DNA from: Microbacterium trichothecenolyticum
GTDB lineage: Bacteria; Actinomycetota; Actinomycetes; Actinomycetales; Microbacteriaceae
Reading direction: 5' to 3'
NCBI RefSeq assembly: GCF_000956465.1
Contig: NZ_JYJA01000032.1
Span: 1 to 64,000, forward strand
Length of the DNA stretch: 64,000 nt
The notes beneath the pieces are model-generated. The model was not told where the DNA came from. It ran no database searches and worked only from the letters and a program-made list of their open reading frames with translations. Every line of letters starts with the position of its first letter. Position 1 is the first letter of the stretch. A program made the translations under genes and the position numbers. Positions 3,651-48,307 of this stretch are shown here, one piece after another.

Positions 3651-5039
3651 ATGGTCACCCGGCAGTTCCCCAATCCCAAGGAGCTCCTCGAGCTCATGCA
3701 GTTCAAGAAGCCCGAGCTCGACGGCAAGAAGCGCCGCCTCGAGTCCGCGCTGACGATCTACGACCTGCGCGACATCGCGAAGCGCCGCACGCCCAAGGCC
3801 GCGTTCGACTACACCGACGGCGCCGCCGAGGGCGAGCTGTCGCTGTCGCGCGCGCGCCAGGCGTTCGAGGACATCGAGTTCCACCCCGATGTGCTGCGCC
3901 CCGCCGAGAACGTCGACATGTCGACCGAGATCCTCGGCGGCCCGTCGACCATGCCGTTCGGCATCGCACCGACGGGCTTCACGCGCCTCATGCAGACCGA
4001 GGGCGAGATCGCCGGCGCCGGTGCCGCTGGTGCCGCCGGCATCCCGTTCACGCTCTCGACGCTCGGCACGACGTCGATCGAGGGCGTGAAGGCCGCGAAC
4101 CCGAACGGGCGCAACTGGTTCCAGCTGTACGTCATGCGCGACCGCGAGATCTCGTACGGCCTGGCCCGCCGCGCGGCCGAGGCAGGATTCGACACGCTGC
4201 AGTTCACGGTGGACACGCCGGTCGCCGGCGCACGCCTGCGCGACAAGCGCAACGGCTTCTCGATCCCGCCGCAGCTGACGCTCGGCACCATCGTCAACGC
4301 GATCCCGCGCCCGTGGTGGTGGTACGACTTCCTCACCACTCCCAAGCTCGAGTTCGCGTCGCTCTCGACGACCGGCGGGACGGTCGGCGAGCTGCTCAAC
4401 TCGGCGATGGACCCGACCATCAGCTATGACGACCTCGCGATCATCCGTGAGATCTGGCCGGGCAAGATCGTGATCAAGGGCGTGCAGAACGTCGCGGACT
4501 CGAAGCGGCTCATCGACGCCGGCGTCGACGGCATCATCCTGTCGAACCACGGCGGCCGTCAGCTCGACCGCGCGCCGATCCCGTTCCGCCTCCTCCCCGA
4601 GGTCGTGCGCGAGGTCGGGAAGGACGCCACGGTCATGGTCGACACCGGCATCATGAACGGTGCCGACATCGTCGCCTCGATCGCACTCGGTGCGAAGTTC
4701 ACGCTCATCGGCCGCGCGTACCTGTACGGCCTGATGGCCGGCGGACGCCAGGGCGTCGACCGCACGATCGCGATCCTGCGCAGCGAGATCGAGCGCACCA
4801 TGAAGCTCCTCGGCGTCTCGTCCATTGCGGAGCTCGAGCCGCGCCACGTCACGCAGCTGCAGCGGCTCGTCCCGATCGCGGTGTCCGCCCCCGCCGCTGA
4901 GGCGGCCGTCGCCTCGGCGCCGCGCCCGCGCGCCGGCCGGGCCACGACGGCGTCGAGTGCTGCGAGCGGGGATGCTGCAGCATCCCGTCCTGCGAAGGCT
5001 CCCGCCGCGAAGAGCACCGGGCCGCGCGCGAAGGCCTGA
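3651..5039 (+). CDS. lldD: L-lactate dehydrogenase (FMN-dependent, LldD type)
   Basis: Alpha-hydroxyacid oxidase fold of 462 aa that oxidises L-lactate to pyruvate using FMN, usually feeding electrons to the respiratory chain. The active-site signature SNHGGRQLD is present with the catalytic His at about residue 300. The FMN and substrate residues [22 protein letters not shown] and VIKGV all appear in the expected order. The ATG at 3651 follows a purine-rich GGAGAGG. The last 60 or so residues form an Ala/Pro/Arg-rich tail with no domain, which is longer than in most LldD proteins. The related mycofactocin enzyme MftD is an alternative, but no mycofactocin genes are nearby and the upstream GntR gene favours LldD. 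Confidence 0.9.
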
Positions 5040-44158: not shown

Positions 44159-44821
44159 TCACTGAGCCGGAGGCATCAGGACCGCGTCGATGAGGTACAC
44201 GGTGGCGTTGGCGGTCTGCACGCCGCCGCAGATCACGTTGGCGTCATTGACCTTCCACATGTCGCCCTCGCCCGTGACCTCGAGGTCGGACCCCTGCACC
44301 GTGGTGTGCGTGCCCGCGATGTCCGCCGGCTCGATCCGTCCCGGGACCACGTGGTACGTGAGGATCGACGTCAGCGTCGCGCTGTCGGTCTTCAGCGACT
44401 CGATGGTGGCGGGGTCGATCTTCGCGAACGCGTCGTCCACCGGCGCGAACACGGTGAACTCGTCGCCGTTCAGGGTGTCGACGAGGTTCACGTCGGGATT
44501 GAGCTGCCCGCTCACGGCGGCGGTGAGCGTCGTCAGCATCGGATTGTTGGATGCCGCGACCGCGACCGGATCCGCCGACATGCCCTCGATCGATCCGTCG
44601 CCATCCGGCACGGCCTCGGCGTACGCCGCGCAGCCGGGTCCGACGAGGTCGGCGGCGGGATCGGCCGTCATGGGCTCCTCGCTGGCCTCCATGGACGGGG
44701 TCGAAGGTTCGGTCGTGGGTGCTGCGGTCGATCCGCCCATCGAACAGGCGGAAAGCGCGAAGGTCGCGGCGACGGCGAGCATGAGCCCTGCCGACACACG
44801 CTTCCGGGTGATGCGAGACAT
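44159..44821 (-). CDS. Fasciclin (FAS1) domain lipoprotein, MPT70/MPT83-like
   Basis: A 220-residue secreted protein. Signal peptide with lipobox ALSAC (Cys at about 26), a Thr/Ser/Glu linker, then one FAS1 domain (about 85-218) with [14 protein letters not shown] and LTYHVVPGR. The mycobacterial counterparts MPT70 and MPT83 are surface antigens controlled by SigK, and here the sigK-rskA pair is the divergent neighbour. GAGGAGGAAG precedes the ATG. Role at the surface is probably adhesion or matrix interaction. Confidence 0.93.
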
Positions 44822-44906
44822 GTCTTCCTCCTCAGTGCGGTCCTCGGACCGCGGTCTGTGCGTGTCCCCGGTGCGGGGAGCGTGCCGCAGAAGCGGCTAC
44901 ACGGAC

Positions 44907-44935
44907 TGTTCGGAGGGCTCGCCGCATCGGATTGC
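44907..44935 (-). promoter_or_regulatory. SigK-type promoter of the fasciclin gene
   Basis: Reverse strand: GCAATCC (44935-44929), 16 nt, then CGAACA (44912-44907). It matches, element for element, the promoter pointing at sigK on the other strand, and resembles the mycobacterial SigK consensus CCATCC/CCGAAT as I recall it. Confidence 0.7.
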
Positions 44936-45000
44936 AGATCCGACGAGAACGGATGCTGCCGCCCGGGGCCGAGGCATCCGGTTCTCGTCGTGGCAATCCG
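44928..45000. repeat. Symmetric inverted repeat in the fasciclin-sigK intergenic region
   Basis: CGGATTGC, CGACGAGAAC and GGATGC on the left are matched by GCATCC, GTTCTCGTCG and GCAATCCG on the right, giving a broken 24-bp palindrome. The outer blocks contain the -35 elements of both divergent promoters, so the repeat reflects a symmetric regulatory region. The rest of 44822-45166 holds two 5' leaders and no gene. Confidence 0.75.
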
Positions 45001-45022
45001 AATGCGAACCCGGTGCGAACAA
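44993..45022 (+). promoter_or_regulatory. SigK-type promoter of sigK
   Basis: GCAATCC (44993-44999), 16 nt, CGAACAA (45016-45022). Same motif pair and spacing as the opposite-strand fasciclin promoter, implying that SigK transcribes its own gene. The predicted 5' leader is about 140 nt. Confidence 0.7.
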
Positions 45023-45166
45023 CTCACGACGCTTGACGGCTCGCTGGCACCGGGTGCAGGGGCGGCCGCCGTTCATGTTCTCGACGTCGGGACGCCGCCG
45101 GGCGTGGAAGTGTACTCGTTCACCCGCGGGCGAGGCCACGGCGGGGCGGAGGGGGGTGCGTAAGGC

Positions 45167-45769
45167 ATGCTGGTGGACATGGTGATCGACGGGATCGACG
45201 TGCCGGACGACGGCACGAAGCCCGTCGACCGCGTCGCACAGCTTCTCGAGCGCACCGCGGGCGGGGACCAGGTCGCCTTCGCCCGCCTCTACGATCTGCT
45301 GTCCCCCCGGGTGTTCGGTCTGATCCTGCGCGTTCTCGTCGATCGCGCGCAGAGCGAGGAGGTGCTGCAGGAGGTCTTCCTCGAGGTGTGGCAATCCGCT
45401 GCGCGGTTCGCTCCGAACAGAGGGCAGGGAAGATCGTGGGTGCTGACGATCGCGCACCGCCGGGCCGTCGACCGCGTGAGGTCGTCGCAGGCGAGCACGG
45501 ATCGCGACGTGCGCGCGGGCTTCCGAGACCTCGACGTCGCCCACGACGGGGTCGCGGAGCAGGTCGAGCTCCGCATCGAGGGGGAGAAGGTGGCGGCGGC
45601 GCTGTCGGGGCTTCCCGACGCCCAGCGGGAGGCGCTCACCCTCGCGTATTACGGGGGTTACAGTCAGAGCGAGATCGCCGCCCTGGTGGGGGCGCCGCTG
45701 GGGACGATCAAGACGAGGATGCGGGACGGCCTGTCGCGCCTCCGGGCCGAGATGGGGGTGGCCGCGTGA
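45167..45769 (+). CDS. sigK: ECF sigma factor, SigK family
   Basis: A 200-residue ECF sigma factor. Region 2 (about 30-105) has FARLYDLLSPRVFGLILRVLVDRAQSEEVLQEVFLEVW and WVLTIAHRRAVDRVR; region 4 (about 140-195) has LAYYGGYSQSEIAALVGAPLGTIKTRMRDGL. Together with the adjacent RskA-like anti-sigma factor and fasciclin lipoprotein it reproduces the SigK regulon of mycobacteria. The ATG at 45167 is tentative, since ATG at 45179 is also in frame. Its stop overlaps the anti-sigma start (TGATG). Confidence 0.93.
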   Translation: MLVDMVIDGIDVPDDGTKPVDRVAQLLERTAGGDQVAFARLYDLLSPRVFGLILRVLVDRAQSEEVLQEVFLEVWQSAARFAPNRGQGRSWVLTIAHRRAVDRVRSSQASTDRDVRAGFRDLDVAHDGVAEQVELRIEGEKVAAALSGLPDAQREALTLAYYGGYSQSEIAALVGAPLGTIKTRMRDGLSRLRAEMGVAA

Positions 45770-46602
45770 TGGACGAGCAGGAGTTCGCCGAGCTCGCCGC
45801 AGGCGCCGCGCTGAACGCGCTGTCGCCTGACGACCGCGCGGCCTTCGAGGCGGCGCGCCGCGAGCACCCCGAATGGGAGCACTGGATCGACACGGATGCC
45901 GCCACCGCCGCGGCGCTCGCCGACACCGTCTCCGACGCCGTGCCTCCGCTCACTCTGCGCTCCACGCTGCTCTCGCGGATCGCGACGACTCCGCAGCTGC
46001 CCGCGATGGACGCGGCTGTGGCCGCGACGGCGGAGCCCGTGGACCGGTGGACGCCGGCCCCGCCGCCGGCACCGGAACGGCACGGAGACGAATCGCCCGT
46101 CGAGCCGCCCCCGCCGACGGCGGTGATCCAGGCGGTCTCGCGGCGTCGCTGGACGCGGGGCATCCTGGCGCTCGCCGCCTCCCTGGTGCTGCTCGTCGCA
46201 CTAGGCCTCGGGGCCGTGCAGATCAACGAGTACATGACCCGGCCGCCGGAGGTCGTGGCGCTGCAGCAGATCGAGGACGCCCCCGATGCCCGGTCGGCGA
46301 CGGTCGAGGTCGCGGACGGCGGGACGTCCACTGCGCACTGGGCGGAATCCGTCGGCAAGGTCGTGCTGGTGTCGCAGGGACTGCCGCAGATCGCGGACGA
46401 CGAGAGCTTCGAGCTCTGGTTCGTGCGCGATGGCGCCGCGGTGCCCGCGGGGGTGTTCGAGCCGACGGACGGGACGACGACTGCGCTGCTCGAAGGAGCG
46501 ATGGAAGCAGGCGACGTGATCGCCGTGACGATCGAGCCCCAGGGCGGCTCGCCCACGGGGGAGCCGTCGTCCGATCCCATCGTGACGATCCCCACGGCCT
46601 GA
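45769..46602 (+). CDS. rskA: Anti-sigma-K factor, RskA-like
   Basis: A 277-residue membrane anti-sigma factor. The N-terminal sigma-binding domain (about 1-75) starts DEQEFAELAAGAALNALSPDDRAAFE; a Pro-rich linker, one membrane helix (about 130-150) and an extracellular RskA domain with ESFELWFVRDGAAVPAGVF follow. It would hold SigK at the membrane until regulated proteolysis releases it. No zinc-binding HxxxCxxC is seen, as in mycobacterial RskA. Start overlaps the sigK stop; GTG at 45766 is an alternative. Confidence 0.92.
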   Translation: MDEQEFAELAAGAALNALSPDDRAAFEAARREHPEWEHWIDTDAATAAALADTVSDAVPPLTLRSTLLSRIATTPQLPAMDAAVAATAEPVDRWTPAPPPAPERHGDESPVEPPPPTAVIQAVSRRRWTRGILALAASLVLLVALGLGAVQINEYMTRPPEVVALQQIEDAPDARSATVEVADGGTSTAHWAESVGKVVLVSQGLPQIADDESFELWFVRDGAAVPAGVFEPTDGTTTALLEGAMEAGDVIAVTIEPQGGSPTGEPSSDPIVTIPTA

Positions 46603-47585: not shown

Positions 47586-47668
47586 GACAGGCGCGAGACG
47601 TGTGCCTGCCCTGGGCCGCCGCCGTGCAGCGCGAGCCCGTGCTCGTGGCGGCGAGTAGCCTGGACGGA

Positions 47669-48307
47669 ATGAGCGACTCGTCCAGGGAGTTCCACAAGCC
47701 CGTCCGCCGACCGGCCGAACTCTTCGACCGGGTGTTCCCCGCCGAGGACCCGGCCGAGGTCTCCCGCGTCGCGCACACGACCGCGCACGCCCTGCTCGCC
47801 CGCGTTCGGGCCGACCCCGACGGCACCGTCGTGGATCGGCTCGTCGCCTTCACCGACGAGCACGGCATCGACGACCTCGCGGAGCTGTGGTCGCGGTCGC
47901 CCGCGAAGACGCTTCCGGGCGCCTTGTGGCGGCTGTACCTGGTGCAGCTCATGATCCACGACGACCCGCGCACGGCCGCGCTCCTGTACGAGCGCGGCCG
48001 TGCCGAGCTCCGCTCCGCCGACGACGTGGTGGCGGGCGCGCCGTCCCCCGCGGGGCCGGAGGAACTCGTCTCGCTGGTCGACACCATCCTGCGCGGGCTC
48101 TTCGAGGGCGACTTCGCCGTGGCCCTCGAAAGGGCGGCCGCGTTCTGCCGGGTGCAGGCCGCCGGCGCGACGCACGTCGCCGACGACTACGAAGCGACCG
48201 AGCCCGACCGCGCATCGGCCTTCACCACGCGCGCCCTGCGGCTGTCGGACTACGCCGCCGACCTCACGGCCTGCGCCGCCCTCTGGCGCCGCGACGCCCT
48301 CAGCTGA
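47669..48307 (+). CDS. Soluble protein of unknown function
   Basis: A 212-residue, mostly helical, acidic protein without signal peptide or membrane segment. Notable stretches are FHKPVRRPAELFDRVFP at the start and WRLYLVQLMIHDD in the middle. I do not recognise a domain. TAGCCT (47656-47661) is 7 nt before the ATG at 47669. Codon use is like that of its neighbours, so it looks like a native gene. Confidence 0.75.
   Translation: MSDSSREFHKPVRRPAELFDRVFPAEDPAEVSRVAHTTAHALLARVRADPDGTVVDRLVAFTDEHGIDDLAELWSRSPAKTLPGALWRLYLVQLMIHDDPRTAALLYERGRAELRSADDVVAGAPSPAGPEELVSLVDTILRGLFEGDFAVALERAAAFCRVQAAGATHVADDYEATEPDRASAFTTRALRLSDYAADLTACAALWRRDALS

Follow-up and report, generated by a model that had tools for sequence, protein, structure and literature searches.

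ECF σ factors are commonly described as being co-transcribed with their anti-σ factors and positively autoregulated, and ~55% of them are predicted to be autoregulated (PMC8103513). Autoregulation of SigK in Mycobacterium tuberculosis is reported to proceed through the Rv0449c promoter, and RskA has been reported as both an inhibitor and an activator of SigK (PMC7509140). In the cskE-sigK-dipZ locus of Corynebacterium pseudotuberculosis, sigK, an anti-σ gene and dipZ are listed side by side (PMC3078919), as they are in the dipZ-bearing Microbacterium loci that are described below. The locus with which this analysis is concerned lies in a 64-kb stretch of the Microbacterium trichothecenolyticum genome (the window). 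It shares SigK, RskA, a fasciclin-domain lipoprotein and a SigK-type promoter at the lipoprotein gene with the M. tuberculosis mpt83, dipZ and mpt70 system (PMC7509140, PMC3078919). DipZ is shared with relatives of the window; the window itself has lost dipZ. A site inside sigK, such as the third SigK-type site of this locus, is mentioned for neither the M. tuberculosis nor the C. pseudotuberculosis genes in the literature consulted.

The closest precedent for reading such a site as an intragenic promoter comes from Corynebacterium glutamicum, in which a SigH-dependent promoter inside sigH is reported to drive rshA only (PMC3489674). The likeness consists in a promoter of the cognate ECF σ factor that lies within the σ gene and serves the anti-σ gene. 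The σ factor and its motif are different there and so are the distances: rshA transcripts are reported to start 62-66 nt upstream of the gene, whereas the site inside sigK lies ~350 nt from rskA and implies a much longer leader of ~343 nt. The MicL RNA of E. coli, which is made by RpoE from a promoter inside cutC (PMC8103513), provides another instance of an ECF promoter within coding sequence, although the host gene is not a σ gene and a small RNA is made. The literature searched, which took in few subscription papers, contained no account of a promoter inside sigK and no mention of codon conservation at the rshA promoter.

The genes of the locus

The fasciclin-domain lipoprotein gene (44159-44821, minus strand; an open reading frame of 220 aa, MPT83-like, Pfam Fasciclin match 2.1e-28), whose lipobox, LSAC, can be read directly from the sequence, is divergent from sigK and rskA. 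The product of sigK (45167-45769, plus strand; 200 aa) scores 251.8 bits against the NCBIfam SigK profile PRK09646 (cut-off 226), placing it in the SigK family, and a domain search finds both region 2 and region 4 in it. The product of the adjacent rskA (45769-46602, plus strand) is an anti-σK factor by its match to Pfam RskA_C (2.4e-22; 80.1 bits, cut-off 29.4) and to the NCBIfam anti-σ profile (4.1e-39). The sigK stop and rskA start codons overlap in TGATG. These profile matches bear out the identities that had been assigned to all three genes in the original prediction. As members of the cassette, the window retains the fasciclin lipoprotein gene with its SigK-type promoter and lacks dipZ, which is present in some relatives. 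The SigK of Microbacterium sp. Leaf288 shares 95% identity with the window protein; the 80 named loci compared are the best matches and an uneven sample.

The window SigK contains no cysteine; it lacks the two cysteines reported for 94% of ECF18 and 56% of ECF19 SigK proteins (PMC7509140). The 235-aa protein encoded at 47600-48307 is 58% identical over 202 residues to a protein encoded upstream of sigK in a locus of another genus (L350), and similar proteins are found in L366, L336, L348 and L332, a conserved neighbourhood. In some genera a different lipoprotein-like gene (~220 aa) is found upstream of sigK (L334:5189-5851, L340:5186-5875); loci of this type have a distal SigK-type site upstream of the gene that precedes the lipoprotein-like gene.

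Three SigK-type sites

CAATCC-N16-CGAACA had been noted on both strands of the intergenic region, pointing outward, and both are exact matches, each preceded by G. The site for the lipoprotein gene occupies 44907-44934 on the minus strand (-35 at 44934-44929, -10 at 44912-44907); the other, now heading sigK-rskA, occupies 44994-45021 on the plus strand (-35 at 44994-44999, -10 at 45016-45021). The third exact match in the window, overlooked in the original prediction, falls within sigK codons 76-85, at 45392-45419 on the plus strand, and is directed toward rskA. The motif is rare: CAATCC-N14..18-CGAAC occurs 3 times in the 64 kb, with 0.12 expected (100 shuffles, of which the largest count is 1). 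The search of the 4.52-Mb genome that had been proposed along with the prediction yields 5 sites and none for a reversed control pattern. The looser CAAWCC-N15..17-CGAAYM yields 6 sites genome-wide, 3 of them within the window (2 for the reversed control); among the listed neighbours of the sites C12, C17 and C37 a clear regulon member was not seen.

With up to one mismatch in the -35 element allowed, 38 of the 85 Microbacterium loci in which the genes are adjacent have a SigK-type site upstream of the lipoprotein gene, and looser matches on the lipoprotein side extend to other genera. Within 300 bp upstream of sigK such a site is found in 17 of 123 Microbacterium loci, a count that leaves aside sites preceding dipZ in the loci that retain this gene. 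SigK-type promoters on both sides of the region are thus supported, the one on the lipoprotein side recurring in relatives. Of the proposal that one symmetric divergent promoter is shared, the divergent SigK-type sites stand; there are, however, two promoters, in a lineage-specific arrangement, rather than a single shared one. The most widely kept SigK-type site is not one of the divergent pair but the one inside sigK.

Constraint on the site inside sigK

Conservation was assessed in 122 distinct Microbacterium sigK genes, identical genes being counted once, and L025, whose frame is interrupted early by a stop, and L058, with a stop at codon 113, being dropped. Glutamine 76 is encoded by CAA in 119 of 119 genes, serine 77 by TCC in 120 of 120, alanine 82 by GCT in 96 of 99, proline 83 by CCG in 121 of 121, and arginine 85 by AGA in 62 of 65. 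These codons of the two hexamers are almost invariant while their alternatives are frequent elsewhere, and alanine 78, in the spacer, varies. Whichever residue it encodes, codon 82 ends in T in 118 of the 122 genes. The sequence directly before the -10 CGAACA of the internal site is CTC, which is also common at many lipoprotein promoters; this explains the rare GCT codon at position 82. The broader -10 context, CTCCGAACA, likewise recurs at lipoprotein promoters.

Third-position changes were counted on a tree of 121 rows (L060 left out) that was built without sigK codons 70-92. Codons 76, 77 and 83 have none and codon 82 has 3, whereas the average is 26.2 over 50 fourfold codons, 26.3 over 40 sixfold codons and 14.8 over 38 twofold codons; spacer codon 78 has 37. 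Codon 76, being twofold, is weaker when taken alone, since twofold codon 50 also has no change and codons 38 and 62 have one each. The only other fourfold codons with fewer than 14 changes are 197 (none) and 198 (one), which lie in ATGGGGGTG (45752-45760, plus strand; codons 196-198), probably the ribosome-binding site of rskA, embedded in the end of sigK. The form CAAWCC-N16-CGAANA is kept in 117 of the 122 genes. The strict CAA[AT]CC-N16-CGAA[CT]A is kept in 105 of 122 (104 of the 121 whose upstream sequence is long enough, a further locus being left out of the upstream counts because it lies close to the end of its contig), and most of the genes that miss the strict CGAA[CT]A form read CGAAGA or CGAAAA. 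Read as codons, this record shows selection on DNA beyond that on the protein, for a SigK-type promoter sequence inside sigK. The motif, of the type ascribed to the cognate σ factor, lies inside that factor's own gene and points at the anti-σ gene; SigK presumably reads it, and the predicted transcript start lies near 45426.

Codons 62 and 63 (45350-45355; CAG, AGC) are also unusually constant, with 1 and 8 third-position changes, respectively, which may reflect the inertia of serine codons or another element.

The internal site beyond Microbacterium

Among 113 loci of other Microbacteriaceae (part of the listed places in other genera of the family), 23, belonging to 13 genera, have the element, one has its -35 half only, and 89 have neither half. 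The amino acid sequence permits the element in 26 loci, and it is present in 23 of these, as against 0.6 expected from codon use. Loci of other families in the order, 34 in all, lack the element.

In these genera the internal element and a SigK-type site just upstream of sigK tend not to occur together. Upstream sites, which were sought within 450 bp only, accompany sigK in just one of the 23 element-bearing loci versus 55 of the 90 others (Fisher, 6e-7); controls give 1 of 113 on the opposite strand and 0.1 of 113 in shuffled sequence (shuffles that keep single-base content only). Counted by genus, the proportions are 2 of 13 with the element versus 28 of 39 without (p = 7e-4), genus g69 showing both states in different loci. 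On the SigK protein tree, which is poorly resolved, the element is gained or lost 11 times outside Microbacterium. A caveat applies to the counts by locus and by genus, because on the well-supported branches of that tree the exclusion is not significant (5 independent pairs, median p = 1; 2 pairs from the non-Microbacterium rows alone). By count, the internal site of other Microbacteriaceae occurs mostly where a SigK-type site just upstream of sigK is absent.

A more far-reaching reading would be that throughout the Microbacteriaceae the codons of sigK region 2 encode the promoter of its antagonist, that this promoter has repeatedly been swapped for an upstream one, and that the sign of the feedback consequently differs between genera. 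We hold this only tentatively and at somewhat less than even odds. Forty long regions were chosen by state (20 of the 23 loci with the element, 12 with neither element nor proximal site, 8 with the proximal site only), and only the 20 element-bearing ones were counted. Read ~6 kb upstream, 6 of these show a further strict plus-strand site, in one case the proximal site already counted, and the other 14 show none; three of the 14 (L335, L337 and L343) have near-matches before dipZ, with one mismatch per box allowed. The distal sites, and the near-matches before dipZ, imply that operon-level autoregulation may coexist with the internal site. In Microbacterium, 116 of 121 loci with enough sequence have the element (in its CGAANA form): 15 of these also have a proximal site, 33 have dipZ upstream and 68 have neither. 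Fifteen of the 33 have a site before dipZ, 15 are cut off and 3 are without one. Promoters borne by dipZ thus soften the exclusion of internal by upstream sites and lower the probability of a swap of feedback.

Other readings of the internal site

The frozen codons might serve the binding of another protein, or an effect on mRNA or translation, their likeness to a SigK promoter being accidental. What stands behind the SigK promoter is sequence evidence, and codons 62-63, too, are constant without a known reason. Nevertheless, both halves are found at the N16 spacing, within the same CTCCGAACA context as at lipoprotein promoters, and the halves are gained and lost together (in the 113 loci of other genera, both in 23, one in 1, none in 89). 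The internal -35 element agrees with that of the lipoprotein promoter, as judged by its fourth base, in five of the six element-bearing loci compared, L344 being the exception, and in genus g3 the two change together to CAAACC. We consider an accidental likeness improbable.

It is just as improbable that an internal SigK promoter makes a regulatory RNA, as for MicL, instead of an rskA message. Such a product would accommodate the long distance to rskA and would have MicL, described in the review cited above (PMC8103513), as its precedent, but the putative 5′ end of the RNA is ordinary: codons 86-89 have 44, 19, 18 and 22 third-position changes, within the range of other codons, and the strongest frozen stretch that follows the internal site is the start of rskA. 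Still less probable is an N-terminally truncated SigK, comprising region 4 only and competing for RskA or for -35 elements. The window does have an in-frame GTG at codon 92 that follows a purine-rich stretch; however, start-like codons compatible with an intact region 4 are not well conserved (codon 92 in 44%, 104 in 73%, 115 in 64%), and the well-kept ones, ATG at codon 185 (98%) and a start-like codon at 196 (93%), leave at most 16 residues. The truncated product was rejected on the poor conservation of suitable start codons.

Loss of dipZ and the origin of the mirror arrangement

In some Microbacterium loci the lipoprotein gene lies ~1.9 kb away from sigK. A dipZ homologue is found between them in all 22 such loci that were checked, transcribed toward sigK and with 34-54 nt between its end and that gene (the L065 homologue has DsbD_TM, AhpC-TSA and Thioredoxin_10 domains). 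Of these 22 loci, 18 have the site on the dipZ side and 17 have the one on the lipoprotein side. The window sequence 44822-45022 aligns with the intergenic region between the lipoprotein gene and dipZ at 76% aligned identity to L065 and 78% to L066. Beyond it, 45077-45166 (plus strand) is a scar composed of the remnant of the dipZ 3′ end and the old dipZ-sigK spacer: it aligns at 72% to L065 3911-4000 (dipZ stop at 3967, sigK start at 4001), and its segment 45096-45166 aligns at 83% over 71 bases to L066. These alignments indicate that dipZ was lost and that its promoter now faces sigK. A close dipZ was not found elsewhere in the genome, the single match reaching 33% across the redoxin part. 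None of the 17 Microbacterium loci that have a proximal site upstream of sigK has dipZ, as this history predicts; 69 others have neither dipZ nor the proximal site. Leaf288 has the same arrangement as the window.

The fused CcdA/TlpA-type dipZ in genomes of Microbacterium, which is not a mycobacterium (e.g., L065:2240-3964), runs counter to the description of the full-length dipZ of Actinobacteria as exclusive to pathogens (PMC3078919).

The broken palindrome that had been noted between the two -35 elements is also real. Its core, CGGATGC...GCATCCG, spans 44950-44980, with outer arms at 44941-44950 and 44981-44990. The pattern CGGATGC-N3..25-GCATCCG occurs at 138 places in the genome (none for the reversed control pattern), a dispersed palindrome that we call REP-like. 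It is already present between the lipoprotein and dipZ promoters in L065. Duplication by inversion, or a dimeric regulator, had been suggested as the source of the symmetry, and the inverted repeat has z = -5.5 when 44925-45005 is folded as single-stranded DNA, but this suggestion is rejected as highly unlikely: the core pattern is dispersed over the genome, its outer arms differ in Leaf288, no more than 6 of 84 Microbacterium intergenic regions have it as their top inverted repeat, and the plus-strand promoter is a homologue of the one that precedes dipZ in relatives. Comparison with relatives, which had been proposed as a check, thus upholds the two promoters and removes any special origin of their symmetry; the mirror arrangement is ordinary and lineage-specific.

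A probable built-in negative feedback

The preferred reading, to which we assign a probability of about 0.7, is that the locus has three SigK-type promoters, an ancestral lipoprotein/dipZ pair and an internal one that drives rskA and provides negative feedback. The two divergent promoters are those of the ancestral lipoprotein/dipZ pair, and the loss of dipZ set the plus-strand one before sigK-rskA, where it would confer positive autoregulation. SigK-RNA polymerase would also start near 45426, within sigK, generating an rskA message that contains only the 3′ part of sigK and that would be translated from the conserved ribosome-binding site belonging to rskA itself. Active SigK would then generate more RskA, SigK not being raised. 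The reported dual role of RskA as inhibitor and activator (PMC7509140) makes the sign of the feedback effect uncertain. The internal site makes a strong candidate promoter, and a simple one to test: four synonymous changes would alter it and leave the protein untouched. The relatives offer natural comparisons, since there are genera with the internal site, genera with the upstream site, and genomes with both, like this one.

The constraint on DNA inside sigK points to a second, inhibitory output of the locus, one that annotation and promoter searches confined to upstream regions would miss. It also cautions that rare codons that stay frozen in a regulator gene can conceal a promoter. If the swap between internal and upstream promoters is true, the feedback on SigK would be amplifying or self-limiting depending on the genus.
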